Origin: an uncultured bacterium
GTDB taxonomy: Bacteria > Planctomycetota > J058
Reading direction: 5' to 3'
Length of the DNA stretch: 35,890 nt
Assembly: GCA_937911525.1 (NCBI GenBank)
Contig: CALDQK010000557.1
Span: 1 to 35,890 of the forward strand
The notes beneath the pieces are model-generated. The model made no database searches, was not told the DNA's origin, and worked only from the letters and a program-made list of their open reading frames with translations. The translations under genes were made by a program, and so were the position numbers. Shown in pieces: positions 2-20,016 of this stretch; within the stretch, counting starts at the first letter, position 1, and each line of letters begins with the position of its first letter.

Positions 2-1156
2 CGCTGGGAGGGGCTCGTCGACGCGGGCCTGCTCGCGGTCGCTGGAGTTCAGCCCCAGGCAGAGGAGCGCGCTGAAGGGGTGGTCCTCGCGCGGCGCGCG
101 GAGGAGGCCCTGAGAGCAGTTGCCTGCGACGACCGCGCCTGGGAGCGGGTCGGCAGCCAACTCAACGGCCAACTCGTGGATCTGGGCACCTCCCTCTCGG
201 TGCACGGCTACCAGCCCGTCCAGCGCCAGCAGGCCGACGTGTTCGTGGTGAGCGTTCCCTACCAGGGGCGCTCGCTCAGCCCGCTCGAGCTGGAGCAGGA
301 GCTGGCGGGGGAGGTCACGGAGCGAGAGCGGATCCTCAGCGCGCGCGAGCGGGCGGTGATCGAGGAGCACCTCGTCGGCGAGATCGCGACGCACCTCCAC
401 GAGCGTCTGCGCGAAGCGGAGCAGGTCGTCGCCGACATGAATCGGGAGCTCCAGCGCTGCCCGACCAGCACGGGGGTCGAGCTGAAGTTCACCTGGGAGC
501 CCCTGGCGGACGGACCGGCGGGGACCAGCGAGGCTCGACGGCGTTTGCTCTCGAGCAGCGCGACCTGGTCGCTGGAGGACCGCGAGGCGCTGGGCGACTT
601 CTTGCAGGAGCGGATCGAGGAGGTCCGGCGTGACCTGCGCGAGGGCGCGGGGGGCACGTGGCAGGAGGCGCTCCGCCTGGCGCTCGACTACCGCCGCTGG
701 CATAGGTTCCGGATCCACCGCCGTCAGGACGGGCGCTGGCAGCTGCTGACGCGCCGGACCCACGGGACCGGCTCGGGCGGGGAGAAGGCGATCGCGCTCA
801 CGATCCCGCAGCTGGCGGCGGCCGCGGCTCACTATCGCTCCGCGGACGCCCACGCCCCGCGCTTGATCCTGCTCGACGAGGCCTTCGTGGGGGTGGACGC
901 CGACATGCGGGCCAAGTCCATGGGCCTCATGGAGGCCTTCGACCTCGACTTCGTCATGACCTCCGAGCGCGAGTGGGGCTGCTACCCCACCTTGCCCGCC
1001 CTCGCGATCTGCCAGCTCGCCACCGCTCCCGGCGTCGACGCCGTCCACGTCACTCGCTGGGTGTGGAATGGCAGCGAGCGGCTGCGCGACGAGCGGCCGA
1101 TTTCGCCGGCTCAAGCGCCGCAGGACGCGCCGGACCTGGTTGAGGCTCCGGCCTGA
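2..1156 (+). CDS. jetC: JetC-like SMC ATPase, C-terminal part (TIGR02680 family), cut by window edge
   Basis: The frame is open from base 2, so only about the last 384 residues are visible. The C-terminal part carries an ABC/SMC signature (GTGSGGEK near base 770) and a Walker B segment (LILLDEAFVGVD near 862-900). It ends in the family-typical stretch DLDFVMTSEREWGCYPT and VTRWVWNG. These blocks are what I know from the TIGR02680 proteins, the SMC-like subunit of the four-gene TIGR02677-02680 cassette, which corresponds to the Wadjet type II anti-plasmid system. In Wadjet the SMC complex is thought to extrude DNA loops and present small circular DNA to the JetD nuclease. The P-loop, coiled coils and the jetA and jetB partners should lie to the left, outside the window. 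The stop codon overlaps the likely start of the next gene. The family call is strong; the subtype name is from memory. Confidence 0.9.
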   Translation, partial: RWEGLVDAGLLAVAGVQPQAEERAEGVVLARRAEEALRAVACDDRAWERVGSQLNGQLVDLGTSLSVHGYQPVQRQQADVFVVSVPYQGRSLSPLELEQELAGEVTERERILSARERAVIEEHLVGEIATHLHERLREAEQVVADMNRELQRCPTSTGVELKFTWEPLADGPAGTSEARRRLLSSSATWSLEDREALGDFLQERIEEVRRDLREGAGGTWQEALRLALDYRRWHRFRIHRRQDGRWQLLTRRTHGTGSGGEKAIALTIPQLAAAAAHYRSADAHAPRLILLDEAFVGVDADMRAKSMGLMEAFDLDFVMTSEREWGCYPTLPALAICQLATAPGVDAVHVTRWVWNGSERLRDERPISPAQAPQDAPDLVEAPA

Positions 1157-3996
1157 GCACGACGCGCGAGACCGACGCGGCCGCGCTCGACCCAGAGCGG
1201 CTGCGCGAGGCTCTGGGGGGACCGGACCTGGCGTGGCTGGTCGAGCGGCTGCGGCGTCGGCTGGAGACGAGCGGGGAGTTGGGCGGTCGAGTCACCCTCA
1301 GCGGCCCCACCCCCGAACAGCGCTCCGCCCTCGACCGACTCCTCGGTCGTCGGCCTTCTCGCGGACGGACGATCGGGGTCGATCCTGCGCAGCTCGAGCA
1401 GGTCCTCCGCGCAGCCGGCCTCTGCGCGGACCTCCGCCAGGCCCTTGTGCTCCTCGGCGGGCCTCTCCTGGATCGGCGCGCCTTGGCGGTGGCTCGCCAG
1501 CGAGCCTGGGACGCGCTCTACGCCGACCTGGCCGAGGCCAGCGCGCACCACCCGCGCCTCGCGGAGTGGGCCGAGCGCCTGCCCGCGACCGGCTACCTGA
1601 CCCGCCTCAGCGAGCGCGAGCCGCCTCGAGCCCAAGGGCTGGTCGACGATCTCCGCCCGGTCCTCGCCCGACTCCCTGCCCGCGGGGTGCGCCTCGCGGT
1701 CTTGGCGGCCGAGGCCCTCGGCGACGCTCACGCCCTCGATCCAGGCACACCGCTGGGGAACCTGGCCCTGCGGGCCGCCGCCGCCCTGAGCGAGACCGAG
1801 GACTTCAGCGACGCGCGCGGACGGCGCGAAGCCTGGGCCGGCGCCGGCGTCCTCCTCGACGAGCTCAGCGCGCCAGTCCTGGTCCTCGGCCTCCGCGCCC
1901 ACCTCGACACCTTCAGCGGCCGACAGCTCGCGCTCCACGCCGAGGCGGGTGAGCCCTGTCGGCTCACGGTTCGTCAGCTCCTGCGCGAGCCGCCGCGCTT
2001 CGACCCGACGCTCACGGGCCTGGTCGTCTACGTGTGCGAGAACCCCAGCGTGGTCGCGGCCGCGGCAGACCGGCTCGGAGCCGCCTGCGCGCCGCTGGTG
2101 TGCACCGAGGGCCAGCCCTCCACGGCTGCCCGGCTGCTCCTGCAGGGCCTCTCCGAGGCGGGGATCCAGCTCCTCTATCACGGCGACTTCGACCCGGCGG
2201 GCCTGGGGATCGCCGACCTCGTGATCCGCCGCCACGGCGCTCGCCCTTGGCGCTTTCGGGCCCTCGACTACCTGCTCAGCGAAGGAGGCACTCCCCTCAC
2301 CCCTCCGGCTGAGCTCGAGACGCCCTGGGATCCAGCGCTCGCCGCGGCCCTCCACGCAGAGCGCCGCGCGGTTCCCGAAGAGCGCCTCCTCGAGGAGCTC
2401 TTGCGGGACCTCGCCCAGGAGGGCGCGGGGACCTGTGCCGCAGACCCGACCGGTCTGGAGCCCCTCTCGCCAGCGCGTGTCCTCCCTCTGGCTCAGGCAG
2501 AGGAGTCCGCGGCCGAGTCGCAGAGGGAGGGAGCCCCGCTTCACGTAGCCGAGCTGCTAAGGGGGCTCCGCTGCCCCAAGCGTCTCTGGCTGAGCTCCAG
2601 GGAGCCGACGAGTCCTCGGCCGCTGAACCCTTGGCTCGCTCGGCAGCGCCGGGAGGTTGTGGCGGAGGCCCGACGAGCGCACCCCCGCGGCTGCGCTCTG
2701 CCGGAAGACCTCGCCGCGAGCGTGCCCGGGACCCGCGCCGCGCTGGCCGAGGGCCAGCGCGTCCTCTACGGGGCGGCCTTCGAGCGCGGCGGCCTGATCG
2801 GACGTCTGGACCTCCTCGTCGCCAGGGGCGCGCCCTCCGGCGCCAAGCCCACCTGGTCCTTGACGCGCGTGACGAGCGCCAGCTCGATCACGCCGGAGCA
2901 CGTCGATGCGCTGGCCCTGGGCGTGTGGCTCGCCGAAGGGAGCGGGCTCGAGGTCGAGCAGGCCTGGGTGGCCCATGTCGACACCGCTGCGACCGACCCC
3001 GCGCACCGACTGCGCTGGTCGGACGAGACCCGCGCCGTGCGGCAACGCCTGCGCACCCTCGACAGCGACATCGAGGCGTCGCGCCACACGCTGGAGCTGC
3101 CTGCGCCTCCGGCCCTAGACGTGGGTCCCCAGTGCGAGCGCGGCGGCGATCGCGCCTGCCCCTACCTCGAGCGCTGCTGGCCCGACGAAGGCCCCACGGT
3201 GTTCGAGCTGCCCCGCTTCCCCGCTCGCGTCGCATGGCGACTCCACCGCCAGGGCCGGGCGCGCCTCGAGGACCCCGCAGACCTCCCGGCTGAGCTCAGC
3301 GCCCGCCAGCGCCGGCTGGCCCTCGCAGTGCTGGAAGGTCGCCAGCATTTCGACAGGCAAGCGCTAGGTGAACACCTCTCAGCCTGGCCTCGCCCCTGGG
3401 CTTCTCTCGATTTCGAGACGATCGCGGCCGCGCTGCCTCGATACCCCGGCGCCCGGCCCTACGAGCCGATCCCTTTCCAGTTCAGCGTCCACCTCGAAAC
3501 GCCCAGTGGGCTCGAGTCGCGTGACTACCTGCATCCGACCCCCGACGACCCTCGGCCAGCGCTCGCTGCTCAGCTCGTCGGGGCCCTCGCCGATCACGCT
3601 GGGGCCGTCCTCGTCTACGGGCTCGGCTTCGAGGCCAGCCGCCTGGAGGAGCTCGCCTGCGCCGTCCCCGCCCTGGCTACAGAGCTGCGCGCGATTCGCG
3701 AGCGCCTGGTCGATCTTCGTCCGCTCCTGGAGGAGCGCCTCTTCGATCCGCGACTTGAGGGGTCCTATGGGCTCAAGCGAGTCCGCCCGCTCCTGCTAGG
3801 GCGAACTGCGATTGCCAGGATCTTGCCCCCCTCGAGGATCGACGACGGACTCGCTGCGCAGGAAGCCTACGCCCAGCTGCTCCAGAGCGACTCAACTCCA
3901 GAGGGACCCATGGCTGAGCTACGCGCTTACTGCTGTGAGGACTCAGCCTCTGTTTTGCGGATAGCACTGGGGCTCCGAGAAACCGGATCCGACTAG
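1153..3996 (+). CDS. jetD: JetD-like TOPRIM nuclease (TIGR02679/DUF2399) fused to a DUF2779 Cas4-like/DEDDy exonuclease module
   Basis: About 947 residues if started at CTG 1153, which overlaps the jetC stop (CTGA). The first conventional start, TTG 1279, would cut off conserved N-terminal sequence (GGPDLAWLVERLRRRLETSG), and an in-frame stop lies at 1141. Residues 1-430 match full-length TIGR02679/JetD, with VCENPSVV (E296) and YHGDFDPAGL (D345, D347) giving the TOPRIM-type acidic motifs. After a linker, residues 468-947 match a complete DUF2779 protein. This part has a Cas4-like region with four cysteines (C474, C661, C669, C675) suited to an Fe-S cluster. A DEDDy-like domain follows: SLDFETI (D753, E755), VYGLGFE (E827) and YCCED (Y926, D930). 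The usual E-V-K nuclease motif reads R572-V-T574, so the Cas4-like site is probably dead. Usual JetD proteins end near residue 430, so this is an extra nuclease fused to Wadjet. Domain calls are by recognition; the role is inferred. Confidence 0.85.
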   Translation: MSTTRETDAAALDPERLREALGGPDLAWLVERLRRRLETSGELGGRVTLSGPTPEQRSALDRLLGRRPSRGRTIGVDPAQLEQVLRAAGLCADLRQALVLLGGPLLDRRALAVARQRAWDALYADLAEASAHHPRLAEWAERLPATGYLTRLSEREPPRAQGLVDDLRPVLARLPARGVRLAVLAAEALGDAHALDPGTPLGNLALRAAAALSETEDFSDARGRREAWAGAGVLLDELSAPVLVLGLRAHLDTFSGRQLALHAEAGEPCRLTVRQLLREPPRFDPTLTGLVVYVCENPSVVAAAADRLGAACAPLVCTEGQPSTAARLLLQGLSEAGIQLLYHGDFDPAGLGIADLVIRRHGARPWRFRALDYLLSEGGTPLTPPAELETPWDPALAAALHAERRAVPEERLLEELLRDLAQEGAGTCAADPTGLEPLSPARVLPLAQAEESAAESQREGAPLHVAELLRGLRCPKRLWLSSREPTSPRPLNPWLARQRREVVAEARRAHPRGCALPEDLAASVPGTRAALAEGQRVLYGAAFERGGLIGRLDLLVARGAPSGAKPTWSLTRVTSASSITPEHVDALALGVWLAEGSGLEVEQAWVAHVDTAATDPAHRLRWSDETRAVRQRLRTLDSDIEASRHTLELPAPPALDVGPQCERGGDRACPYLERCWPDEGPTVFELPRFPARVAWRLHRQGRARLEDPADLPAELSARQRRLALAVLEGRQHFDRQALGEHLSAWPRPWASLDFETIAAALPRYPGARPYEPIPFQFSVHLETPSGLESRDYLHPTPDDPRPALAAQLVGALADHAGAVLVYGLGFEASRLEELACAVPALATELRAIRERLVDLRPLLEERLFDPRLEGSYGLKRVRPLLLGRTAIARILPPSRIDDGLAAQEAYAQLLQSDSTPEGPMAELRAYCCEDSASVLRIALGLRETGSD

Positions 3997-4074: not shown

Positions 4075-5307
4075 GTGAGACCCGAGGACGTTGAAGAAAG
4101 CCGCAGGCTCGCTGCGAAGGCGCATGCCATGGGTCTGATCGGCGGCTCGACCCTCGCTGCCTGCGACGACTTCCTCGCCCGAGGCAACACCGCTGGCCTC
4201 GACGCGCAGCAGTTCTTCCTCAACCTGACGAACCTGAACGACGTCCACCTCGCCCTTCTTAGAGGAGATCAGGGTGTCCTGCAGGGCCTGCCGGTCTTCT
4301 CGAATCGCCTGCGCGTGGTGGGGGAGATCAGCCGCGGTGGCATGGGCGTGGTCTATCAGGCATGGGACGTTCACATTCAGCGGATGGTCGCGGTCAAGGA
4401 GATGCTGACCAGCCACCACTCCAGCCACAAGGCCTTCCTGCGCTTTCAGGCAGAGGCTCGCTCCATGGCGGCGATCCGCCACCCAGCCGTTGTGAGCGTC
4501 TATAGCGTGGGGACCTCTCAACGCGGGACGCCTTACCTCGTCATGGAGTTCGTCGCCGGCGCCACGCTCTCCGACGTGGTGAAGCTAGTCGCCCGCGGTC
4601 ACTCCGTAGAAGAGGTGCTGAAACCGGGGAATAGGGTCAGCGCTGGCCTCGCCGCTTCGCCTACGCAGCTCGATATCCAGCAGGTAGCGGCTTGGGGCTG
4701 CAGCCTCGCGGCCGGGCTTCAGGCATGCCACGACCAGGGCGTCATTCACCGCGACGTAAAGCCCTCGAACGTGCTCATTGACCAAGACGGATGCGCGAAG
4801 CTGACCGACTTCGGCGTCGCGCTCGACCCCAAGGGTCACCATGAGCGACTTACGGCTCCAGGGGGCGCCGTAGGAACTCCCCTATACATGGCGCCAGAAA
4901 ACCTCCTGGGTTCGCGAGAGTTCGAAAACGTTGGCCCCAGCGCGGACGTTTACTCCCTAGGCGCAACCCTGTTCACGGCCTTGACGGGGTCGCCTCCCTT
5001 CGTAGCAGCTTCTCAGCAAGAGCTCTTCGTGAAGGTCTACAGCGGCGACGTCTCGCCCTTGAGCGACTTCCGGGACGACGTGCCAGCGGGTCTCCAAGCA
5101 GTGCTCGCCAAGTGCCTCCTGCGAGACCCGGCCCAGCGCTACCAGACCGCCGCGGAGGTCCGGGAAGCTCTCGGGCAATACGCCACCGGCGGCCATGCGC
5201 AAAGTATGCCGGCAGGTCTGGGGCGCAATCCGAAGCTCTTCCTGCTGCTAGTTGTCCTTCTCCTCCTGGGCGTTCTCTCTGCTCTTGCCTGGCTTGGAGG
5301 ATCCTAG
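4075..5307 (+). CDS. Membrane-anchored Hanks-type Ser/Thr protein kinase
   Basis: The protein has 410 residues from GTG 4075; ATG 4129 is the alternative, and an in-frame stop at 4039 rules out anything longer. Residues 1-75 are an unrecognised, probably helical N-terminal segment. The kinase domain (about 80-370) has the glycine loop EISRGGMGVVYQA, catalytic lysine K108 (VAVK), HRDVKPSN (225-232), DFG (245-247) and APE (273-275), so it should be active. A hydrophobic segment at about 385-407 is a single C-terminal membrane anchor with almost nothing beyond it, so there is no extracellular sensor. The last 60 bases overlap the 3' end of the convergent SGNH gene. It lies in the less GC-rich accessory stretch. 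The substrate is unknown; a link to the neighbouring Wadjet genes cannot be shown from sequence. Confidence 0.88.
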   Translation: MRPEDVEESRRLAAKAHAMGLIGGSTLAACDDFLARGNTAGLDAQQFFLNLTNLNDVHLALLRGDQGVLQGLPVFSNRLRVVGEISRGGMGVVYQAWDVHIQRMVAVKEMLTSHHSSHKAFLRFQAEARSMAAIRHPAVVSVYSVGTSQRGTPYLVMEFVAGATLSDVVKLVARGHSVEEVLKPGNRVSAGLAASPTQLDIQQVAAWGCSLAAGLQACHDQGVIHRDVKPSNVLIDQDGCAKLTDFGVALDPKGHHERLTAPGGAVGTPLYMAPENLLGSREFENVGPSADVYSLGATLFTALTGSPPFVAASQQELFVKVYSGDVSPLSDFRDDVPAGLQAVLAKCLLRDPAQRYQTAAEVREALGQYATGGHAQSMPAGLGRNPKLFLLLVVLLLLGVLSALAWLGGS

Positions 5308-6432
5308 CTCCTTAGCGACTAGGCTCGCGATGTAGGCATTGCCACGTTTCGTGTAGTGTCCGCGTCCGCCAGGCTTCAGCGTGAGCCCCTCTAGAGCCTC
5401 TTGTGAAAGATCTAGGCTCCTAAGGCTCTGCCTGAGGTCCAAGAAGGATACCCCCGCTGCAGCGCAAGTCTGCATGAGCCCTCTACCGTCTTGGTCGTCT
5501 TCTCTGAGGATCGGCCCGCCTGTGGGAATGTATACGAGCAGAAGCTCGCCTCCCCACGATTCCACTTTCGCCTTGGAGTGCTGAAGGAGCTCGGCGAAGA
5601 GTGAAGTGCACTCCTCCTTCCAGGCCGCGTATCGCAGCACATCGACTCCGGCAATGAGCGCGAGGGCTACTCGGGAGTGCTTCCACCATGTCCTCGTGCT
5701 GTCGATCACCTCGGCACGCGTTCTTGGAGGCTGGACCTTCATTTCGCCGTCCTTGAACTCCACTACCGGCTTGGGCATCCATGACTTCGGAAACCAGGCG
5801 CGTCCGGCTCGCTCAACGTCGTAGCTGACCAAGCCCCACACGACGACCTGCGGTTTGAGTCGCTCCCCTAGCTGCTCAAGCTTCAGGGCGACCTGGTCGA
5901 CTCCATAGCCGGGAACGCCCGCGTTCAGGACTTCGCTGTCTGGCAGAGCCTCCTGCAACTGATAGGGCCAAGACTCGTTCCACCGAACGTCGGATCCAAA
6001 CGTGAAGGAGTCACCCACAGCGAGGATCCGAAGGTCCCGCCCTCGTGTCCAAGCCACAGCCTTGTGGGCTCTGAGTGTTGGCTTGCAATCCCAGCCCAAT
6101 CGGGTGTGCCGAACGATTGCAGTTCCCTGCTGATCAGGAATGCTAGTACCCCGATCCCACCGCTCCACGTCCTCTGTTGACGCAGTCTCGGCGAAGTCCA
6201 CCTCCCAAACGAGGGTGCTGACCCGAGTGCCGTAAGGCTGACTCGGCCTCCAGTCCAGCAAGACCCCCTCACCTGAATAGATCTTGTAGGTCAGGGGACA
6301 AACCGATCGGAGAAGGATCTCCGCAAGGCCAATCCCAACTCCTAGCGAGACGAATGCAATGGCGAGGCGAAGTCGCTTGCGACGCCTTCGAGGCGTAGCA
6401 CCCTCCGCTTCCGTCTCGCGCTGTGAATTCAC
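5248..6432 (-). CDS. Membrane-anchored SGNH/GDSL-hydrolase-fold protein
   Basis: The protein has 394 residues, starting at a GTG that overlaps the stop of the upstream kinase gene (GTGA), which implies translational coupling. An arginine-rich start (RRRRKR, 15-20) precedes one membrane helix (about 21-42), so the rest is outside the cytoplasmic membrane. ILAVGDSFTFG (137-146) is SGNH block I with S142 as nucleophile, and NAGVPGYG (170-177) is block II. Block III is altered (VSYD where GxND is usual). The C-terminal H359 sits in GGRGHYTKRGN without the usual Asp three residues before it. Such proteins are often esterases or O-acetyl/alginate-type polysaccharide modifiers, but with these deviations the activity is uncertain. 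Its 3' end is antisense to the transmembrane tail of the kinase at 4075-5307. Confidence 0.8.
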   Translation of the reverse strand: MNSQRETEAEGATPRRRRKRLRLAIAFVSLGVGIGLAEILLRSVCPLTYKIYSGEGVLLDWRPSQPYGTRVSTLVWEVDFAETASTEDVERWDRGTSIPDQQGTAIVRHTRLGWDCKPTLRAHKAVAWTRGRDLRILAVGDSFTFGSDVRWNESWPYQLQEALPDSEVLNAGVPGYGVDQVALKLEQLGERLKPQVVVWGLVSYDVERAGRAWFPKSWMPKPVVEFKDGEMKVQPPRTRAEVIDSTRTWWKHSRVALALIAGVDVLRYAAWKEECTSLFAELLQHSKAKVESWGGELLLVYIPTGGPILREDDQDGRGLMQTCAAAGVSFLDLRQSLRSLDLSQEALEGLTLKPGGRGHYTKRGNAYIASLVAKELGSSKPGKSRENAQEEKDN

Positions 6433-8465
6433 CGGTTGCCCCGTGGAACGCTAACGGCCACCCGAGCCCCTGCTAGTGGCAAGCGTGCGCTTGACCCTTC
6501 AAAGCCGCCGAATCGCCTCGTTACCTGATAGTAGTAAGCGCCCTGGGCGTAGGGATCCACCTTCGGTGGAGCCCCATCGCTGGTCCTCCACGCTCCTCCA
6601 CGAAGCACTCGGAGCGGCCCCTCGTCGCTCCTGAGCGGTCTCCAACCATGCACTCCTGCCCAGGTTTTCGTTGACTGCGTAGGTCCACGAGGATCGCGAG
6701 CGGCTGCGGTCGTGTAGGGACCCAAGTAGTCCGAGACCCACTCAGAAACGTTTCCGCACATGTCCATAGCTCCAAAGGGCGAGCAGTCCCCTTCGAACTC
6801 GCCCACAGCCGATGGCCCGGGTGCACCGTCCAACCCTCCGTGAAGATTAGCCTGCCCAATTCGGAGTCGCATACCCCAGGGAAAGACGAACTCCGGCCGA
6901 GTGCCGCGCGCTGCGAACTCCCACTCAGCTTCGGTCGGCAGTCGAAGCCCAGCCCAGTCGCAGTAGGCCTTCGCCTCTTCCCAGCGAAGACACCAGACCG
7001 GGAGGTCCTCTTGGGCTTCGTAGGTCTGACCTCCGTAGTCAATAGTCTCCCCGCTCTCGGGGATCGCGTAGTCAGGGTTGGCCTTTGAAAACCTCCGATA
7101 CTGGCCCCATGTGACCTCATAGCGTCCCAAGAAGTAGCCAGAAAGGGTCACGCGGTGCGCGGGCCGATCGTTCCAGCGGATCTTGATCAGCGATCCGAAC
7201 TCTCCCTCCGACTCCGGGTGTCCCATCATGAACTCGCCCCCTGGGACATAGACCAGGACCGACCCGTCCTTCGCATTGATGTACTCGCCAGGTTGTTGGC
7301 TAGGGAAGACACCGTTCGGGAGAGCCGGCGGCTTGCCCTCTTCAGGAAGCGTTTCGAACCACTGGGGGAAACTGGGCGTTCCCCCCTCTGCCCTAGCGCT
7401 CCCTTGCGCAGGTGGCTGGACAAGCATTGGGGTGGGCTCGGGAACTCCTATCGTGGCCTCAGGCTCAACTGGGGAAGTCCCCGGCGAGATCATCAGGGGT
7501 GCGCTTACCAAACCGAGCAAGAAGAGGATCAGCGCGGCTCCTGCGACCAGGCGATGCTTGACCGGAGACCTCTGCCCTGTGAGGTAACCCTGCAGCGCGC
7601 GTTCGAGCTCTCGCGCGCTCCCATAGCGCTTCTCAGGCTTCTTCTCCAAGCAGCGCAGGCAAATCGCTTCAAGCTTCTTGCTCAAGCCAGCTCGTAGTTC
7701 CCTGGGAGGTCTTGCTGGTTCGGCGACGGTGAGGATCGCGTTACCCGCCGCGTTGCCCCCGGTAAAGGGAGGTGCACCCGTCAGGAGCGCATAGAGAGTG
7801 GCTCCCAGCGAATAGACGTCGGTCCGCGCGTCGACCTTCCTCCACTCCCCCGTCGCCTGCTCCGGTGACCAGTAGCCGGGGCTGCCCATGGCCACGCCCG
7901 TTTGCGACAACCGCTGCTCGAGGTCCAGGTTCTTCACCAACCCGAAGTCGATAAGTACGGGTTCGCCCGTCTTGCGCAGGATAACGTTGGCCGGCTTGAC
8001 GTCCCTGTGAATCAGGCCATGTTGATGCGCGTGGTGAAGCGCGCCAGCAATGTCCCTGCAAACCTCCGCGGCCTTTCGTTCGGGGAGGGGCCCCTGAGAG
8101 AGGGACTCCGCTAGGTTTGCGCCCTCTACGAACTCCTGAACAAGGATTAGGTCCGAGCCATGCGTCTCGACTCCGTGCACGCGCACAATGTTGGGGTGCC
8201 TCAGGGCCCCTAACGCCTCTGCCTCGCGCCGGAAGCGCTCGGCCCCGGCCTCTCCCTGAGCCCCTCGGATCAGCTGCTTGAGGGCAATCTGCCGCTGGGC
8301 GCTCGGATCCCAAGCGAGGAACACGGCTCCCATTCCGCCGCGGGCAATCTCCTCAGTGACTGTGTATCTGCCCAGTTGCATTCTTCCTAGAGACGCTATC
8401 CCGTCGCTTTCAACCTGACCAGGCCCCGCTCGGAGCGAAGCTAGCGACGGTCCCGACGACTCCAC
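6429..8465 (-). CDS. Ser/Thr protein kinase fused to an FGE-sulfatase (sulfatase-modifying-factor) domain
   Basis: The protein has 678 residues from GTG 8465, chosen because GGGAGG lies just upstream at good spacing. The kinase domain (about 33-295) has IARGGMGAVF, K63, HRDVKPAN (153-160) and DFG (173-175). A membrane helix follows at about 303-325, then a proline-rich stalk. An extracytoplasmic FGE-sulfatase/C-type-lectin-like domain (about 385-678) has YVPGGEFMMG, RLPTEAEWEFAARG, FPWG, DMCGNVSEWVSD and RVLRGGAW. The domain end (LAGARVAVSVPRG) departs from the usual R....iGFR ending, and I see no paired active-site cysteines, so a ligand-binding sensor is more likely than true formylglycine generation. 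This architecture is known in Planctomycetota. It forms a two-gene unit with the SGNH protein, whose start codon overlaps its stop. Confidence 0.9.
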   Translation of the reverse strand: MESSGPSLASLRAGPGQVESDGIASLGRMQLGRYTVTEEIARGGMGAVFLAWDPSAQRQIALKQLIRGAQGEAGAERFRREAEALGALRHPNIVRVHGVETHGSDLILVQEFVEGANLAESLSQGPLPERKAAEVCRDIAGALHHAHQHGLIHRDVKPANVILRKTGEPVLIDFGLVKNLDLEQRLSQTGVAMGSPGYWSPEQATGEWRKVDARTDVYSLGATLYALLTGAPPFTGGNAAGNAILTVAEPARPPRELRAGLSKKLEAICLRCLEKKPEKRYGSARELERALQGYLTGQRSPVKHRLVAGAALILFLLGLVSAPLMISPGTSPVEPEATIGVPEPTPMLVQPPAQGSARAEGGTPSFPQWFETLPEEGKPPALPNGVFPSQQPGEYINAKDGSVLVYVPGGEFMMGHPESEGEFGSLIKIRWNDRPAHRVTLSGYFLGRYEVTWGQYRRFSKANPDYAIPESGETIDYGGQTYEAQEDLPVWCLRWEEAKAYCDWAGLRLPTEAEWEFAARGTRPEFVFPWGMRLRIGQANLHGGLDGAPGPSAVGEFEGDCSPFGAMDMCGNVSEWVSDYLGPYTTAAARDPRGPTQSTKTWAGVHGWRPLRSDEGPLRVLRGGAWRTSDGAPPKVDPYAQGAYYYQVTRRFGGFEGSSARLPLAGARVAVSVPRGNR

Positions 8466-10706: not shown

Positions 10707-13700
10707 ATGACCCTCCGACTCTTCCTCAGCAACGATCTGCGCGCCCTCGCCCGAGGCCTCGACCAGGCGCTCCTCAGCGATCCGCTCGAGGCGGCCTTCG
10801 CCGGGCTCGAGGTCACGGTCGACTCGCCGCACCTGGGCAAGTTCCTGCTCGACGCCCTGGCCGAGGCGCGCGGGATCGTGGCGAACGTCCGCTTCACGAG
10901 CCTGGACGGGCTGCTGGGTCGGGCGCTCGCCGCGGGAGGGTCGCTGCGCCTGCTCGACCACGGGCGCCTGCGCAGCCTGCTCTTGGCCCGGCTGCTCGAT
11001 CCGGCGGCCCTGGCCGAAGACGCCCTCGCGCCGGTGCGCGACTACCTGGCCGCGGGCGCTAAGGACGACCCGCAGCGGCCCTACTTGCTGGCGACTCGCC
11101 TGGCGGCGTCCTTCCTCGGCTATCACGCCGAGCGGCCCGAGCAGGCGCAGCGCTGGCTCGCAGGCGAGGTCGGCTTCTCCGCCGACCCCGAGAGCGACGC
11201 CTGGCAGCGCGCGCTCTTCCGGGGCGTGTTCGGAGCAGGCGAGGCGCTGGACGAGCTCGAGCGCGAGAGCGGTCAGCGCTGGCGCGCGCTGGGGCAGCTG
11301 CCCTCCGAGCCCGAGCTGGGCGCGCAGCTCGAGCTGCCCGACCCCCTCTGCGTGGTGACGTGCGAGCCCCTCGGCCGCGCGCGGCGTGAGCTCCTGCTGC
11401 GCCTGGCCGCGGAGCGCGAGGTGCGGCTCTTCCGCTACCGCCCCACGGTCGCCTTCCAGGAGGACCTCGCCCCTGAGCTGGACGACGAGGCGGCGCGGGC
11501 CCGGCTGCCGCGGCGGAGCGACGCGCAGCTCCCTCCGCCCGAGGAGCAAGAGAGCGTACGCGAGCAAGCGCTCCTGCCCGTGCTGGGCCAGCTCGGGCTC
11601 GAGGACGACCAGGCCCTGGCCGCGCGGGCGCGCGAGCTCGGGGTCGCGCTGGTCGTCGAGCCGCGCTACTCGCTCCCGCAGGGCAGCGGGCTCCTGGCTC
11701 GGCTCCAGCGGGACCTGCTCCTGCGCGCGCCCTTGGGCCAGGCGGACCTCGATCCGGACAGCAGCCTGGCCGCGACGGCCTGCGTCAACCGCCCCGCCGA
11801 GGTCGAGCGGGCCGCCGAGGTCGTGCTGGAGCGCCTGGTCGAGGACGACGCGGAGGGCAGCGGGCGCCCGCTCCAGCTGCACGAGATCGCGCTCCTCGTC
11901 CCGCGCGGCCTCGACGGCTACTGGCCGCTGATCCGCTCGGTGTTCGGGGCCGCCGGACTGCGCGCGCGCCTGATCGAGGGGCGCCCCGACGAGCGCCTGC
12001 TCGAGGTGTGCGAGCTCTTGCTCGACCTGCCAGGGAGCCGCTTCTCGCGCCTGGAGCTGCTCGGGATCCTCACCCACCCCAGCGTCCTGACCCGCGCCGA
12101 GCTGGACCGGCACGAGGTCAGCGAGTGGTTCGACTCGCTCGGCCTCTACCTCGGCGCCGATCGCCGGGACCAGGCGGGCACCTACCTGGAGGGGCTGCCG
12201 GAGGAGCACTACACGATCCAGGCCGCCCTCCGCCGGCTCACCCTGGGCGCCTTCTGCGAAGGCGAGCGCTCCGGCGAAGAGCGGCTGGTCGCGCTCGCGC
12301 AGGGCGACGTGCCCCCCGAGGACCTGCCCAGCGACCGGCGGGCCGCCGCGGCGCGCTTCTCGCTCCTGCTCCGCTCCCTCGTCCGCGACGCGGCGGTCGC
12401 CGAGCAGACCCGGCTCGTCCTGGGCGAGTGGGGCCGCTGGTTCGAGGCCATGATCCGCACCTACCTCGCCCCGAGCGACGAGCGGGAGGAGAACCTCCAC
12501 GAGCGCCTGGCCCGGGGGCTGGGCAGCCTCGGGGAGCGCGACCTCGGCGGCGCGCAGGTCGGCTACCCCGTGGCCGCCGCGGCGGCGCGCGAAGTCCTGA
12601 GCCGCCTCCGCAGCGGCTACGCGCGCGACCTCGCCGGGGGCGTCCTCGTCGCCAGCGAGCTCCCCCCGCTCCCCCTCCGCCAGGTCGTGGTCCTCGGGCT
12701 GGACGAGTCCTTCCCGGCCGGCGAAGAGCGGGCCAGCGGACTGGACCTGCGCCGCGGGCGAGCGCCCGGAGAGGCCAGCCCGCGGACGCGGGACCTCGAG
12801 GCGATCCTCGGCACCCTGGCGAGCGCCGAGCGGGTCCACCTGACCTACGTCGCCAAGGACGCGCGCGGGCGCGACCAGGTGCCCAGCCCCGTGCTCGGCC
12901 ACCTGCGCCGCGTGCTCCGCGCTGGCTACCTGAAGCCCGCGGCGGCCGGCCGCTGGCTCGTGAGCCAGCCCGCTCTGCGTCACGAGCCGGGCGACTTCCC
13001 GGCCTTGGCCGGCGGCGCGCCCGCCTTGACCAAGCTGCCCGAGGCCCGCCGCGAAGCCCAGTGCGTCGCCCTGCGCGACGACCTCCGCCGCCACCTCGGG
13101 ATCGCGCAAGGCCCCTCGCCCTCGCTCGCCCAGGTCCGCGCCCGCGTCAGCGAGCCGGTCCGCGCGGGGCTCGACGCGCTGCTCGGCCTGGGAGAGGACC
13201 TGCCGCTGCCCGCGCCCGGCAGCTCGGGAGAGGCGACGCGCCTGAGCGTCAGCCAGCTCAAGCGCTTCCTCCAGAGCCCCGTCCAGCAGGGCGCGCGCTG
13301 GCGCGGCCTCGCCGAGCCCGAGGGGATCGAGCCGCGCGAAGCCGAGCCCTTCGAGGTCGACCGCCTCGACGAGTGGGCCCTGCTGACCGAGGTCTTCCGC
13401 GACGCCATGGCCGCGCCTGCGGCGGACGAGACCGAGCGCGTCGCCGAGCTGCTCGAGCGCTACCTGCGCGCCCTGCGCCGCGAGGAGCGCCGCGGGCGCC
13501 GCGTCCCGACCGGGCCCTTCCTCGAGGTCGTGCAGCGCAAGCAGGTCGAGGTGTTGCGCTGCTGGGACGCGGCCTTGCCGCGACCGATCCAGCCCTTGCG
13601 CGCGCTCCGCTTCGGCGGCCTGGCCGGCGCGGAGGGCGCCGAGCGCGTCGAGGCAGCCCTCGAGCTCGAGCTCACCCTGCCGACCCCCGCGGGCGAGCGC

Positions 13701-14216
13701 AGCGTGCGGGTCGAGATCGTGGGCCCCCTGCCCCTGCTCCTCGCGGACCTCTCGGGCTCGGTCACGCCCTCGACCTCGGCCCGCAAGAAGGAGGAGAAGC
13801 TGATCACCGACGGCTTCCTCAGCCACGTGCTCCTCGCCGCCAGCGGCGTCCGCTGCGACCAGCCCTTCTCGGCCCACTTGCTCCGCCCCAGGCCGGGCTA
13901 CGCCTGGAGGCCCGTGGAGCTCGCCGCCCTGGACCAGGAGCGGGCCTGCGCCTACCTGCGCGGCCTGGTCCGCGACCTGCTCCTCGGTCAGCGCGAGCTC
14001 CTCCCCCTCGAGGCCGTGGTCGCCCACCTCAAGAAGCCCGAGCGCGGGCTGCCGGCGCGGATCGAGGGCGTCCGGCGGGATCCGGACACGACCGCGTCCG
14101 TGTCCTACGGCCCGCTCCGCGACTGGCGCGAGCGCCCGGTGCCCGGCGACGCGGTGTGCAGCGCGCTGCTCGAGCGGCGCTTCGGCCTCTATCGCACGCT
14201 GAAGGTCTCGGGCTAA
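10707..14216 (+). CDS. recC: Exodeoxyribonuclease V subunit gamma (RecC)
   Basis: The protein has 1169 residues, comparable with E. coli RecC. RecC is the helicase-like, non-catalytic subunit that holds RecB and RecD, splits the strands and recognises Chi. The N-terminus (LFLSNDLRALARGL, then VTVDSPHLGKFLLDALAEARGIVANVRF) is the standard RecC opening. Later come the inactive helicase-like blocks (HEIALLVPRGLDGYWPLIRSVFG; GVLVASELPPLPLRQVVVLGLDESFPA). The C-terminal RecB-nuclease-like domain follows (LSVSQLKRFLQSPVQQGARWRGL), lacking catalytic residues as usual. It starts at ATG 10707 without a strong ribosome-binding site. The stop overlaps the recB start (TAATG), so it is the first gene of a translationally coupled recC-recB-recD operon. 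Confidence 0.95.
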   Translation: MTLRLFLSNDLRALARGLDQALLSDPLEAAFAGLEVTVDSPHLGKFLLDALAEARGIVANVRFTSLDGLLGRALAAGGSLRLLDHGRLRSLLLARLLDPAALAEDALAPVRDYLAAGAKDDPQRPYLLATRLAASFLGYHAERPEQAQRWLAGEVGFSADPESDAWQRALFRGVFGAGEALDELERESGQRWRALGQLPSEPELGAQLELPDPLCVVTCEPLGRARRELLLRLAAEREVRLFRYRPTVAFQEDLAPELDDEAARARLPRRSDAQLPPPEEQESVREQALLPVLGQLGLEDDQALAARARELGVALVVEPRYSLPQGSGLLARLQRDLLLRAPLGQADLDPDSSLAATACVNRPAEVERAAEVVLERLVEDDAEGSGRPLQLHEIALLVPRGLDGYWPLIRSVFGAAGLRARLIEGRPDERLLEVCELLLDLPGSRFSRLELLGILTHPSVLTRAELDRHEVSEWFDSLGLYLGADRRDQAGTYLEGLPEEHYTIQAALRRLTLGAFCEGERSGEERLVALAQGDVPPEDLPSDRRAAAARFSLLLRSLVRDAAVAEQTRLVLGEWGRWFEAMIRTYLAPSDEREENLHERLARGLGSLGERDLGGAQVGYPVAAAAAREVLSRLRSGYARDLAGGVLVASELPPLPLRQVVVLGLDESFPAGEERASGLDLRRGRAPGEASPRTRDLEAILGTLASAERVHLTYVAKDARGRDQVPSPVLGHLRRVLRAGYLKPAAAGRWLVSQPALRHEPGDFPALAGGAPALTKLPEARREAQCVALRDDLRRHLGIAQGPSPSLAQVRARVSEPVRAGLDALLGLGEDLPLPAPGSSGEATRLSVSQLKRFLQSPVQQGARWRGLAEPEGIEPREAEPFEVDRLDEWALLTEVFRDAMAAPAADETERVAELLERYLRALRREERRGRRVPTGPFLEVVQRKQVEVLRCWDAALPRPIQPLRALRFGGLAGAEGAERVEAALELELTLPTPAGERSVRVEIVGPLPLLLADLSGSVTPSTSARKKEEKLITDGFLSHVLLAASGVRCDQPFSAHLLRPRPGYAWRPVELAALDQERACAYLRGLVRDLLLGQRELLPLEAVVAHLKKPERGLPARIEGVRRDPDTTASVSYGPLRDWRERPVPGDAVCSALLERRFGLYRTLKVSG

Positions 14217-17200
14217 TGAGCGAGCCCGTCCTGTGGCGCCACCCCAAGGCCGAGCTGCTGGCGCGCCTCTCCCTCGCTCCCGCCAGCCGCGTCCTGATCA
14301 GCGCCGCGGCCGGCACGGGCAAGACCGAGTCGACCTGCCAAGCGGCGATCGCGCAGCTCCTCGAGCAGGGCGTCGCGCCTGAGTCGATCCTGATCGTGGC
14401 CTTCAACGAGAACGCCGCCCGCGAGAGCCGCGCCCGCTTCCGCGAGATCGTGGAGCGCCTGCTCGGCCCGCCCGAGAGCGAGCCGCCCGCCGACGCGGAC
14501 TGCTTCGAGATCACGCCCAGCGCCCAGCGCGTCCTCGCGGCGGCCCTCCGCGCGGGACCCGTGATCCGCACGATCCACTCCTGGGCCGGCCAGGTGCTCG
14601 AAGATCACCCCCTCCGCGCGGGCGTCCCCCTGGCCGCCGAGCTGGTCGGGCGGGCTGGCGCCTTCAAGCGGGCCTTCCTCGGGCTCCTGCGCGGGACCCT
14701 CGCCCGCGACCACGCCGCGGACCTCGAGCTGTGGCTGAGCCACCGCTCGCTCGAGCGCCTGGAGGTGCTCCTGCGGCGAGCCAGCGACGAGCACACCTCG
14801 ACCCTGCTCCGCCCGGCGCTCGACCACGACGCGATCGCGGCCGCCCTGGAAGAGGTCGCGGGCACCTCGCGCCGCACCTGGACCCAGCTCCGCCGGGCGA
14901 TCGAAGACAAGCAGGTGATCGCCAACTGGAAGACGCGCAACGCGCTGCGGCCGATCCTCGACTCGCTCCCCGAGCGCGCCCGCGCGCTGGCCGACTCCGG
15001 CGCCCGGCTGGCCCCCCACGACCCGTCTCTGGTTGGCGACGTGAGCTACGTCGTCTCGCGCCTGGGCGCCAACCCGCCCTCGGGCTGCGGCGCGCTGCTC
15101 AAGCGGCTGGAGGCGCTGCGACAGCTCCAGGTCGGCCTGGACGCCGCGGCGGCGAGCCTGTTCACCCAGCCGGCGCGCGAGGCCTACCGCGAGACCAAGC
15201 GCGCCCGCAACGAGATCGACTACGACGACCTGCTCGTCCTCCTCGACGAAGCCCTGGCGAGCCCCCAAGGAGCGGCCCTCCGCCAGCTGGTCCGCCAGGA
15301 GGTCGAGCTCTTCGTCAACGACGAGTTCCAGGACGCCAACAAGCTGATCTACTCCTACCGCCAGGGCGAGCTCGCGCGCGGCCTGATCCGCCCGCTCTGG
15401 CTCGAGCAGGGCTACCCGGGTCGAGCGGTGCTCTGCGGCGACGGGCGCCAGAGCATTTACTCCTGGCGCGGGGCCGACGTCCACGCCAGCTTCCTGCGCG
15501 CCAAGCAGGAGCTCCAGGCCCGCGGCGCGGTCGAGTCGCTGCGCCGCTCCTACCGGGCGACCCCGCGGCTGGTGGCCGCCATGAACGAGCTCTTCCGCCA
15601 GGACGCGAGCCCGGCCTTCTTTCAGGGGGAGATCGACTACAGCGAGCCCATGGAGGTCGGCCGCCCGGGGCTGCGCGCGCTGGGACCCGCGGGCCAGGAC
15701 GTCGAGCCGATCCGCCTGCTGGAGGTGACCACCTCGAGCCAGCGCCTGCGGGCCGACGAGCTGCGAGCGGCCGTCAACCTGGCGATCGCGCGCCGGATCC
15801 ACGGCCTGCGCAGCGACGACCCGATCACCCTGGTCGAGGACGGACGCGAGCAGCCGGTCGGCCTCGACGAGGTGTTCGTGCTCACCCGCGGCCACCGCGA
15901 CGCGGCCGAGGTGGCGCGGGGGCTGCGCAGCTTCGACCCGCCGATCCCCTGCGTCGTGCAGCGCTCGAGCGGCCTGTTCGGGACGCCCGAAGCCGCCGAC
16001 GTGCTCGACCTCCTCGCCGGCCTCGCCCGCCCCAGCGACGGGCGCCTGCGGAGGCGCGCCTTCCTGACCCCCTTCCTGGCGGTCCCCCTCGAGCGCCTGC
16101 CCTCCCTGCGCGAGCTCCCCGCCGACCACCCCCTCCTGCGGCGCTGGTATCGCTGGGTCGACCTCGCCGAGCGCGACGTGTCGCGACTCCTGGCGCTCCT
16201 CGTCGACGAGAGCGGCCTCGCCGCCCGCGAGCTGCTGGACGGCCTCGAGGCCCGCAGCGCCTCGGTCTACCGCCAGGTGCTCGAGGAGCTGCGCCTGCAG
16301 GCGACGCGCCTCGCGGGCGGGGTCAGCGAGCTGCTGGTCAGCCTCGAGCAGCTGATCGCCGAGAGCTCGGACGACGAGCGGCAGGAGCGCTTCCCCGTTC
16401 GCCAGGACGCGAGCGTCCCCAGCGTCCAGATCCAGACCGCCTACGCGGCCAAGGGTCAGGGGGCCGCGCTGGTCCTGATCGCGGCTTCGGGGATCACGGG
16501 CCGCAGCCCCAAGAAGGACCCCACCCACGTCTACCGCGACCCCGAGGAGGGCGAGGACGACCGGCCCCGCTACGATCGCGGCGACGCCCCCCCGCAGCTG
16601 GAGCTCTTCGTCGACGAGAAGGGGCAGCGCGTGCTGCACGTGGGCAACCTCGACGACGCGGCGCTCGCCCTCTGGCAGGACTCGGAGCGCGAGGCGAGCA
16701 CCTTCCTGCACTACGTCGCGATCACGCGCGCCAAGGCCCAGGTGGTGATCCCGACCGTGGCCTGGCTCGAGGACGAGGCCGAGTGGCTCTACCCCCGCCT
16801 GGCAGGCTCCTACTACGAGCCCCTCAACGAGTGCCTCCGCCGCCTGATCGCCGACCGCGAGGCCGACCCGGGCCTGCGCGAGCTCGTCTCCTGCGAGGAG
16901 ATCGCCGCCGAGCCCGAGCCCGCCCCCCCGGACCCCGCCCAGTGGGAGGAGGGCCTCGCCAGCTGGTCACCGCCCGCTCACCTGCTCGGGCCGATCGACG
17001 AGGGCGAGGGGCGCAGCGAGCTGCGCCGGGCGCACCGCGCGCAGCGCGTCGTCAGCTACTCCTCGCTCAAGCGGGACCTGGTCGAGGCCGGCGAGCTGCC
17101 CCCGCCCGAGGCCGTCGACGGCGCGAGCGCCGCCCCGGCGGGGATCGGGCGTGAGCTGCTGCGCGGCGGCAAGGACACCGGCAACTACCTGCACGCCCTG

Positions 17201-17857
17201 CTCGAGCACGCGCCGCGCGAGGGTCTGCTGGAGGCCGAGGGCCCGGCGTCCTGGGGGGCGCGCGAGGAGGTGGCCGAGGTCCTGGCGCGCGTGCAGGAGG
17301 CCTACGGGACCTCCGCGGCGGAGGCGGAGGTGGCCCGGGACATGGTGTTCCACACCCTGCGCCGCCCCCTCGACCTGGGAGAGGGCGTGAGCCTGCCCGG
17401 CTTCGCCAGCTGCCCCTCGCTCCAGGAGGCGAGCTTCCGCTTCCCGCTCCCCGAGCTGCAGGGCGTCGAGCTCGCGGCGGGTCGCCTCGCGCTGCGGCGC
17501 GGCTTCGTCTCGGGCGTGATCGACGAGGTCTTCCGCCACCCCGCCTCCCCCGGGGGCGAGCCCGCCCTGTGGTGCGCCGACTGGAAGAGCGACGTGCTGG
17601 AGGACTACTCGGCCGAGTCCATGAGGGCGCACGTGGAGAACGACTACGCCTATCAGCTCGCGCTCTACCTGGTCACGCTCAAGCGCCTGGCGCGGGTGGA
17701 GCAGCCCGAGGACCTCGGCCGCCTGGGCGGAATGCTCTACGTGTTCCTGCGCGCCTCGGGGCTGGCCGACCCGACGCCCAGCCTCGGCGTGTGCGTGATC
17801 CGCCCCAGCTGGGAGACGCTGCTCGCCTACGAGCGCGCCCTGGAGGAGATCGCCTAA
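14216..17857 (+). CDS. recB: Exodeoxyribonuclease V subunit beta (RecB helicase-nuclease)
   Basis: The protein has 1213 residues from the ATG overlapping the recC stop; the frame is open far upstream, but that part is antiparallel noise within recC. It is an SF1 3'-5' helicase with Walker A AAGTGKT (31-37), a motif II region FVNDEFQDAN (about 365-375), GDGRQSIYSWRGAD (about 408-421), a divergent motif V (TAYAAKGQGAA) and YVAITRAKAQ. The C-terminal nuclease has GVIDEVF (D1103) and ADWKSD (D1122, K1124), so the PD-(D/E)XK site appears intact, followed by YQLALYL. RecBCD resects double-strand ends for recombination and degrades foreign linear DNA. The stop overlaps the recD start (TAATG). Confidence 0.95.
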   Translation: MSEPVLWRHPKAELLARLSLAPASRVLISAAAGTGKTESTCQAAIAQLLEQGVAPESILIVAFNENAARESRARFREIVERLLGPPESEPPADADCFEITPSAQRVLAAALRAGPVIRTIHSWAGQVLEDHPLRAGVPLAAELVGRAGAFKRAFLGLLRGTLARDHAADLELWLSHRSLERLEVLLRRASDEHTSTLLRPALDHDAIAAALEEVAGTSRRTWTQLRRAIEDKQVIANWKTRNALRPILDSLPERARALADSGARLAPHDPSLVGDVSYVVSRLGANPPSGCGALLKRLEALRQLQVGLDAAAASLFTQPAREAYRETKRARNEIDYDDLLVLLDEALASPQGAALRQLVRQEVELFVNDEFQDANKLIYSYRQGELARGLIRPLWLEQGYPGRAVLCGDGRQSIYSWRGADVHASFLRAKQELQARGAVESLRRSYRATPRLVAAMNELFRQDASPAFFQGEIDYSEPMEVGRPGLRALGPAGQDVEPIRLLEVTTSSQRLRADELRAAVNLAIARRIHGLRSDDPITLVEDGREQPVGLDEVFVLTRGHRDAAEVARGLRSFDPPIPCVVQRSSGLFGTPEAADVLDLLAGLARPSDGRLRRRAFLTPFLAVPLERLPSLRELPADHPLLRRWYRWVDLAERDVSRLLALLVDESGLAARELLDGLEARSASVYRQVLEELRLQATRLAGGVSELLVSLEQLIAESSDDERQERFPVRQDASVPSVQIQTAYAAKGQGAALVLIAASGITGRSPKKDPTHVYRDPEEGEDDRPRYDRGDAPPQLELFVDEKGQRVLHVGNLDDAALALWQDSEREASTFLHYVAITRAKAQVVIPTVAWLEDEAEWLYPRLAGSYYEPLNECLRRLIADREADPGLRELVSCEEIAAEPEPAPPDPAQWEEGLASWSPPAHLLGPIDEGEGRSELRRAHRAQRVVSYSSLKRDLVEAGELPPPEAVDGASAAPAGIGRELLRGGKDTGNYLHALLEHAPREGLLEAEGPASWGAREEVAEVLARVQEAYGTSAAEAEVARDMVFHTLRRPLDLGEGVSLPGFASCPSLQEASFRFPLPELQGVELAAGRLALRRGFVSGVIDEVFRHPASPGGEPALWCADWKSDVLEDYSAESMRAHVENDYAYQLALYLVTLKRLARVEQPEDLGRLGGMLYVFLRASGLADPTPSLGVCVIRPSWETLLAYERALEEIA

Positions 17858-20016
17858 TGGCCAGCGCCGGTCGACTGAGCGCCCTCGGCGGGGTGGCCCG
17901 CCAGCGCGGCCTGCTCCCGCCCAAGGCGGCGCGCTTCGAGCAAGACCTCGAGCGCCTGGCCGAGCGCGTGGGGGACTTCGGCCTCGAGCCCGAGACCGTC
18001 CACCTCGCGCGCGAGCTGGTCGGCTTCCAGCCCAAGCTGGGCGGCACCGACGAGCGCTTCGCGGCGATCTGCCTCGTGGTCGCGAGCCTGATCGGCGAGG
18101 CGCAAGGCTGCACGCGCGTCCCGCTCCCGGGCGGCGCGCACGGGCTGGACTTCGTGGGCGAGACCCTCGCGGCGCTGCTCGCGCCGCGCGAGGGCGAAGA
18201 GGTCCCCGCCGAGCGCTCGCCGGCGGCCGTCGCACGCCAGCTCGAGCAGCTCCTCGCGGGGGAGTCGCTCAGCGCGCTGGTCGGCGCCCCCGGGGCCTTC
18301 GTGCCGCTGATCCGACACGAGGGCTGGCTCTCGCACCAGAAGCTGCGGGCCCAGGAGGGGCGCGTGGCCGAGCGGATCGGGCTCCGCCTGCGCGCTGAGC
18401 TGCCGGGCTACGAGCAGGCGCAGCTCGGCGAGGTGCTGGAGCAGGTGCTCGCCGCGCCCCCGCTCGTGGCGGGCGACGCGATCGCCCTCAGCCCCGAGCA
18501 GCAGCTCGCCCTGCTGACGCCCTTCGCAGGCGGACCTGGGGGCGGCGCCAGCGCCCTGAGCCTGATCGTCGGCCCGCCGGGGGCCGGCAAGACCTCAGCG
18601 CTGGCCGGCCTGCTGCGCTGCGCGGTGCGGCTCGGCTACGCGCCGAGCGAGATCGGCCTCGCCGCCCCCTCCGCCAAGGCCGCGGCCCGCATGGCCGAGG
18701 CGACCCGCGCCGCGCTCGAGGCGATCCCCGCGCGGAGCGAGCTGGACGAGCGCCTGCTGGCGGAGCTGCCCGAGGGGAAGACGCTCCACCGGCTCCTCGG
18801 CTGGAGCAAGGCGGGCCGGTTCCGCCACGCGGCCGACCGGCCCCTTCCGCTGCGACTGCTCGCGGTCGACGAGACCTCGATGCTCGAGCTGAGCGTCGCC
18901 GACGCGCTCTTCGCGGCGCTCCAGCCGGACACGCTCCTGATCCTGCTCGGCGACGCGGACCAGCTGCCCGCCGTCGGCGTGGGGGCCCTGCTGGCGCAGC
19001 TCGTCCCTCAGGTGACCACGACCGAGGTCCCCTGGCGGGGGCTGGTCAGCGCGGGCCTCCCCGAGGGCGACGCCGCCCCGACGGGCGCGCTGGAGCGAGT
19101 CACCCGCCGCCTGCCGGTCAGCTTCCGCGTCACGGAGGGCGGCGCGGGCGCGCACATTCTGGCGGTCGCCGAGGCGATCAACGCCGGCGACCCCGAGGCC
19201 CTGTTCGGCGACGCGGGTCCGGCGCGGATCACCCCGCGCAAGAAGCCCGCCCAGCTGGCCTTCTCCGGCGTCGAGGGCCTGCTCGAGCTCGGCGCAGGCG
19301 AGGGCGCGCTGGACCCCTTCTGGGAGCGCTTCTACCGCGAGTTCCTCCGCGGGGACGCCGAGCTCGCCGCCGCGATCGAGCGGATCTACCCGCTCGGCCC
19401 CAGCGGCGAGCTGCTCGCCGAGGGGCTCGGGCAGGCGCGCCGCGTCCTCGCCGCGCGCGCCCGCGCCAAGGTCCTCTGCGTGACCAACCTCCAGCGGGGC
19501 GTCGGCGTCGAGGCCGCCAACCGCGCGCTGCAGACGCGCCACCTCGCCCAGCTCGGGCTGCCCTCCTACGAGAGCTGGGCGCCAGGCATGCCGCTGCTCT
19601 GCGTCAAGAACACCTACGGCGTCTCGCCGCCGCTCTACAACGGCGACGCCGGGATCGTGCTGCGCTGCCAGAGCAAGCCCGACGCGCCACCTCGGCTGAT
19701 GGCCGTGTTCGAGCGGCGCGGCGCGCTGAGCGCCTTCGCGCGTCCGGCGCTGGCCGACCGGCTCCAGCCCGCCTGGGCGCTGAGCACCCACCGCGCGCAG
19801 GGCTCCGAAGCCGAGGTCGTGGCCCTGGTCCTCCCCCTGCGGCCGATCCCCCTCCTCTCGCGCCGGCTGCTCTACACCGCCGTGACGCGGGCCAAGCGCT
19901 CGGTCACCGTGGTCGGCGACCCCGCGGTCCTCAGCGCAGGCGTGCGGCGCACGCAGCCGCGCTGGTCCTCGCTGCGGGAGCGAGTGAGCGGCGCCGAGGA
20001 CCCTCCGTCCGCTTGA
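17857..20016 (+). CDS. recD: Exodeoxyribonuclease V subunit alpha (RecD helicase)
   Basis: The protein has 719 residues from the ATG overlapping the recB stop. The N-terminal domain (1 to about 205), which contacts RecC, is recognisable (LVGFQPKLGGTDERFAAI). The SF1 helicase core has Walker A GPPGAGKT (239-246), motif II AVDETSML (about 336-343), GDADQLPAVGVGALL (about 366-380), motif V/Va STHRAQGSEAEVV (about 644) and motif VI LLYTAVTRAKRSV. It supplies the 5'-3' motor of RecBCD. It is a little longer than the E. coli protein, with extra sequence around GPARITPRKKPAQLAFSGVEG in the middle. It is the last gene of the operon. Confidence 0.95.
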   Translation: MASAGRLSALGGVARQRGLLPPKAARFEQDLERLAERVGDFGLEPETVHLARELVGFQPKLGGTDERFAAICLVVASLIGEAQGCTRVPLPGGAHGLDFVGETLAALLAPREGEEVPAERSPAAVARQLEQLLAGESLSALVGAPGAFVPLIRHEGWLSHQKLRAQEGRVAERIGLRLRAELPGYEQAQLGEVLEQVLAAPPLVAGDAIALSPEQQLALLTPFAGGPGGGASALSLIVGPPGAGKTSALAGLLRCAVRLGYAPSEIGLAAPSAKAAARMAEATRAALEAIPARSELDERLLAELPEGKTLHRLLGWSKAGRFRHAADRPLPLRLLAVDETSMLELSVADALFAALQPDTLLILLGDADQLPAVGVGALLAQLVPQVTTTEVPWRGLVSAGLPEGDAAPTGALERVTRRLPVSFRVTEGGAGAHILAVAEAINAGDPEALFGDAGPARITPRKKPAQLAFSGVEGLLELGAGEGALDPFWERFYREFLRGDAELAAAIERIYPLGPSGELLAEGLGQARRVLAARARAKVLCVTNLQRGVGVEAANRALQTRHLAQLGLPSYESWAPGMPLLCVKNTYGVSPPLYNGDAGIVLRCQSKPDAPPRLMAVFERRGALSAFARPALADRLQPAWALSTHRAQGSEAEVVALVLPLRPIPLLSRRLLYTAVTRAKRSVTVVGDPAVLSAGVRRTQPRWSSLRERVSGAEDPPSA

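Follow-up and report, generated by a model that had tools for sequence, protein, structure and literature searches.

Gene content of the window and structure of the fused jetD gene

The window analysed here, a stretch of 35,890 nucleotides, is the entire contig CALDQK010000557.1 of a 10.2 Mb draft metagenome-assembled genome (MAG) with 1342 contigs, which was obtained from an uncultured member of the Planctomycetota (GCA_937911525.1). It opens with the end of jetC, the gene for the SMC subunit of a type II Wadjet anti-plasmid system. Directly behind lies a jetD gene in which a complete type II Wadjet JetD is fused to a DUF2779 protein. The fusion gene is a single open frame (1153-3996, stop codon 3994-3996) which encodes 947 amino acids and has no internal stop or frameshift. 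A first-pass annotation of the window had described one uninterrupted frame downstream of jetC, with a full-length JetD as its N-terminal part, and both were found.

The NCBIfam family TIGR02679 matches residues 41-420 over model positions 1-382 of 382 (1.6e-96; 323.7 bits with a cut-off of 196), and the PADLOC profile JetD2 covers residues 13-423 (1.5e-135). In Pfam, this part consists of DUF3323 (residues 43-249, 6.7e-56) and DUF2399 (residues 270-420, 4.3e-45). The match to DUF2779 (PF11074), which had been expected in the C-terminal half, lies at residues 752-872 (3.3e-29; 102.1 bits with a gathering score of 23.3). GC content at third codon positions (GC3) amounts to 0.87, 0.88 and 0.75 across the gene and is high in both halves.

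Wadjet type II systems (JetABCD; JetA2-D2 in PADLOC; TIGR02677-TIGR02680; EptABCD of mycobacteria) share with the window the order and overlap of jetC and jetD, a full-length JetD2 and intact TOPRIM residues. The usual JetD ends at about residue 425, whereas the JetD of the window continues with a nuclease module of 520 residues (Table 1). The remaining part of jetC corresponds to positions 990-1356 of 1361 of PADLOC JetC2 (3e-126) and to positions 1009-1355 of TIGR02680. Its 5' part lies beyond the contig end, and a search for the rest of the gene in the genome bin did not find it.

The fusion gene probably starts with CTG at position 1153, which overlaps the jetC stop codon (CTGA) and is preceded by a GAGG motif 7 nt upstream. 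With the next possible start, TTG at 1279, the protein would lose its first 42 residues. These are partly included in the JetD2 profile match, so this start would cut the N-terminus of JetD. In a relative described below (G004), jetD has at the same place an ATG start that overlaps the stop codon of jetC.

Table 1: Features of the Wadjet remnant at the beginning of the window
Feature	Position	Strand	Basis and remarks
jetC (type II Wadjet SMC subunit, TIGR02680), last 384 amino acids only	2-1156	+	PADLOC JetC2, TIGR02680
GAGG ribosome-binding-like motif (1142-1145) and CTG start codon (1153-1155)	1142-1155	+	Sequence
JetD module: DUF3323 N-terminal arm and DUF2399 TOPRIM nuclease	1153-2424	+	Residues 1-424; profile matches
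Linker, rich in Ala, Glu and Pro	2425-2532	+	Residues 425-460; plain JetDs end here; no family match
Cas4-like PD-(D/E)XK domain, probably catalytically dead	2533-3192	+	Residues 461-680; alignments and AlphaFold model
DUF2779 RNase H-like DEDDy exonuclease domain	3385-3993	+	Residues 745-947; PF11074 match, motif columns

Catalytic residues of JetD and of the fused module

In the JetD part, the TOPRIM acids E296, D345 and D347 are intact and identical in all 35 of 35 JetD2 rows of the alignment. E409 and E410 are intact as well and identical in all rows with letters at these positions. By motif, the five residues correspond to E236, D279 and E349/E351 of MksG, in which E236 and D279 are needed for cleavage (PMC10123090).

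The tail shows the two-domain layout of standalone DUF2779 proteins, with which it shares about 30% identity, four cysteines and the DEDDy residues. DUF2779 was predicted in 2014 to consist of a DUF83 domain (PD-(D/E)XK-like) and a 3'-5' exonuclease domain (PMC3985635). The first-pass annotation had called the standalone proteins uncharacterised; given this prediction, the module is unstudied rather than unknown. A direct search of PDB sequences, with the whole protein or the DUF2779 alignment as query, gave no meaningful match. An AlphaFold model of the tail reached a pLDDT of 74, and Foldseek found Cas4 as its best match (3.0e-5), followed by Dna2, EXO5 and lambda exonuclease. In its predicted fold, the first half of the tail resembles the Fe-S nuclease domains of Cas4, Dna2, EXO5 and AddB, and four cysteines (C474, C661, C669 and C675) are conserved as in Cas4. 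Of these enzymes, Cas4, Dna2 and EXO5 act on the ends of single-stranded DNA. In contrast to these nucleases, the active-site E-x-K is absent from the tail and a DEDDy domain is added.

In the Cas4-like domain D553 is kept, but the catalytic E-x-K is replaced by R572-V573-T574 (2866-2874). At this site E-[VI]-K is present in every standalone DUF2779 protein compared, 18 of 18 of those found in Planctomycetota or on plasmids and 4 of 4 of those on viral contigs, so that 0 of the 22 share the loss. The DEDDy residues of the DUF2779 domain (D753, E755, E827, Y926 and D930) are all intact. Judged by the lost E-x-K, the first half of the tail is Cas4-like in fold but probably catalytically dead. 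The module had been described as complete, which holds for its length and for the DEDDy residues but not for the Cas4-like site. The reverse pattern, E-x-K kept and DEDDy residues lost, was observed in two standalone DUF2779-like proteins (L116 and L117, from G130 and G063).

Related fusions within the same family

A second genome of the same genus (G006, a separate assembly) encodes a JetD joined in frame to the same Cas4-like domain as in the window. Here C-F-A stands in place of E-x-K, and E in place of D. The tails of the window and of G006 are sisters (support 100/99) with a long G006 branch, so the fusion of JetD and the Cas4-like domain is older than the split of the two.

In another genus of the same family, G004 carries jetA, jetB, jetC and jetD in the whole order typical of type II Wadjet. 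Its JetD is followed in frame by TM0106/TIGR03491 (2.3e-86) and RNase_H_2 (7.6e-27). The TM0106 family (TIGR03491, COG2251), which comprises RecB-like putative nucleases, has the same kind of layout as the window tail, and for COG2251 a DUF83 domain with a 3'-5' exonuclease (RNase H-like) domain was likewise predicted (PMC3985635). It is, however, another sequence family, and the window has no TIGR03491 match. In the G004 tail S, L and R stand in place of D, D/E and K at the PD-(D/E)XK site, while the four cysteines and the DEDD residues are kept. The first-pass annotation had spoken of a complete nuclease module; the Cas4-like site is lost in the window, in its congener and in the TM0106 fusion, and a working nuclease in this half is not upheld.

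In a tree of 42 JetD2 proteins, the G004 JetD is placed inside an actinobacterial group (100/99), and the pair of window and G006 is found near sequences of Sandaracinus, Phycisphaerae and Acidobacteria. Forcing the three JetDs into one clade was rejected (p-AU 1.1e-5). A single ancestral fusion with a later swap of the module was therefore rejected as well. Since the tails differ and the JetDs come from separate lineages, the alignments and the tree indicate that JetD was fused twice, independently, to Cas4-like plus DEDD modules within one family of the Planctomycetota. Although unrelated, both tails have lost one and the same predicted activity and retained the other, which argues that the DEDD site would provide the useful chemistry and that a second metal-dependent nuclease site would be unwanted.

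In one case, standalone genes of both tail families were seen close together. On a Sphingobium plasmid (L020, 5962-10632), a DUF2779 and a TM0106 gene are located about 2 kb apart, with WYL-domain genes between and beside them.

Distribution of the fusion among type II Wadjet loci

Fused JetDs were found in three genomes only (window, G006 and G004), all of one family. In the comparison with plain Wadjet II loci that the first-pass annotation had suggested, no nuclease extension behind JetD was present in 79 other JetD2 loci from genome_contigs. Most of these end at most 50 residues past the match, one runs off its contig, and in two the frame, which has an internal stop, adds 69 and 111 residues. 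The 26 actinobacterial JetD2 loci, one of which is the same contig as L088, carry no such tail and extend by at most 16 residues. The searched flanks of JetD2 loci in genome_contigs and plasmids contained no DUF2779 or TM0106 open reading frames. No fused protein was detected by tblastn with the window fusion against plasmids and phages or with the G004 fusion against plasmids. A scan of viral_contigs with the window tail gave no match; with standalone DUF2779 as query it gave four proteins. An apparent TIGR02679 match in G002 was spurious (22.8 bits with a cut-off of 196).

The first-pass annotation had suggested that the fusion is not known from earlier work, and searches of open-access papers returned no title or abstract in which such a fusion is described. 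A join of another kind was seen in a different planctomycete (L006 19-2493, G080:C312), where a JetD without its N-terminus shares one frame with the end of jetC that encodes the C-terminal part, apparently through a deletion.

Possible function of the fused nuclease module

In type I Wadjet, JetABCD detects circular DNA by extruding it and thereby licenses JetD for cutting (PMC10586767). By analogy with this type, JetABC of the variant described here would use loop extrusion to recognise a small circular DNA and would activate the TOPRIM dimer of JetD, which would then make a double-strand break. The Fe-S Cas4-like domain, presumably a nuclease no longer, may hold or thread the DNA end or a single strand. 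The DEDDy domain would degrade the new end from 3' to 5', and this could prevent re-ligation or recombinational rescue of the plasmid. Relatives such as Dna2 and Cas4 thread single strands through their nuclease domain, and it is this likeness that suggests the holding of a DNA end. We infer the enzymatic activities, the direction of degradation, the holding of DNA ends and the advantage gained from the tail.

The reading we prefer, with a probability of about 0.5, is a variant of Wadjet II whose JetD linearises the plasmid, after which the ends are trimmed by the 3'-5' exonuclease tethered to it. The first-pass annotation had already proposed that the exonuclease-like part processes the ends made by JetD. 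That the DEDDy domain acts on these ends is plausible, and the second independent fusion strengthens the idea, but the congener has no DEDDy domain; the turning of cleavage into degradation is a step that we infer. Once Wadjet has cut a plasmid, it is usually host nucleases that deal with the product. A JetD bearing an exonuclease would, if the reading is true, have degradation built in, and it would offer a single-protein handle on the events after cleavage. The attachment of both DUF2779 and TM0106 modules to one subunit also places two little-studied nuclease families in a functional setting and suggests that freshly cut DNA ends are the substrate of both. That the Cas4-like site was repeatedly lost beside an intact DEDD site makes a sharp prediction of which half does the chemistry. 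Tentatively, and at slightly less than even odds, it can be proposed that Wadjet in this one planctomycete family repeatedly acquired a tail of a dead Cas4-like clamp and a live DEDD exonuclease, forming an anti-plasmid machine that both cuts and degrades on its own. Losing the Cas4-like activity would then have been an adaptation by which only ends made by JetD are digested.

Several observations speak against a trimming exonuclease. The G006 frame stops just past the fourth cysteine, without a DEDDy domain, and another gene comes next. Between the window and G006 the TOPRIM part is 72% identical and the Cas4-like part only 32%, so the tail appears to be under weak or changed constraint. In the window jetABC is incomplete, since the contig end leaves only the 3' part of jetC. 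In G004 an insertion with a transposase-type DUF4277 (PF14104) gene, which is read from the opposite strand, interrupts jetC (L012 9818-11966, G004:C24), and the two jetC pieces meet at profile positions 1043/1041. The fusions are known from only three draft MAGs. Finally, consecutive RecC-like (10707-14216), RecB-like (about 14213-17857) and RecD-like (within 17569-20016) genes are located on the + strand of the window, about 6.7 kb downstream of the fusion gene, and with such genes at hand an additional end-degrading enzyme is not obviously needed. Their presence also led to the rejection of the idea that the tail makes up for a missing RecBCD in the host.

Some of these points would fit the main rival explanation, in which the fusion is harmless to JetD and the tail is a decaying passenger whose nuclease module is lost stepwise, the Cas4-like site first and then, in G006, the DEDDy domain. 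The loss of E-x-K in both DUF2779-type copies, the truncation, long branch and rapid divergence of the G006 tail in comparison with its TOPRIM part, and the rarity of the fusions are all consistent with decay. However, the window copy retains every DEDDy residue and all four cysteines, and within the Cas4-like part codon positions one and two still differ less than in a shuffled control. Random decay is also unlikely to repeat the pattern of a dead Cas4-like site with intact cysteines and DEDD residues in an independent fusion with another family. We consider a passenger unlikely, though a serious competitor. The tail might instead be a nucleic-acid-binding or regulatory part, in which the dead Fe-S Cas4-like domain helps JetD to find or grip DNA, or senses redox state or damage, and the DEDDy domain is secondary. 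All three fusions indeed share a Cas4-like fold that has its four cysteines but lacks the catalytic residues, and G006 keeps this part alone. Against such a role stand the intact DEDD residues in both fusions that have the domain and the plain JetD2 of all other loci seen, which lacks any such part; it is rather improbable.

There is little to favour mere co-expression, with JetD sharing its polypeptide with a DUF2779 enzyme of unrelated task (e.g., the trimming of phage or repair intermediates). Standalone DUF2779 and TM0106 proteins are widespread without Wadjet, for example on plasmids beside ATPase and WYL genes, and they were not adjacent to Wadjet in other loci, but two independent fusions to the same end of the same subunit, involving two families of the same two-domain layout, make this explanation very unlikely. 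An assembly or frameshift artefact joining two genes might be suspected in a draft MAG of so many contigs and for a gene with a CTG start. It was rejected as largely refuted and is hardly credible, since the congener shows the same join in its separate assembly, G004 has an analogous one, and the codon composition is gene-like across the join.

Other genes of the window

Two Ser/Thr protein kinase genes are located near the Wadjet remnant, at 4075-5307 on the + strand and at 6429-8465 on the - strand, and one of them is fused to an FGE-sulfatase domain. The downstream kinase gene was rejected as a part of the system because it is not adjacent to jetD in G006 or G004. Farther downstream, a gene at 32036-34294 (+ strand) codes for a protein in which a MAM domain (1.7e-51), better known from animal proteins, comes after Kelch repeats.

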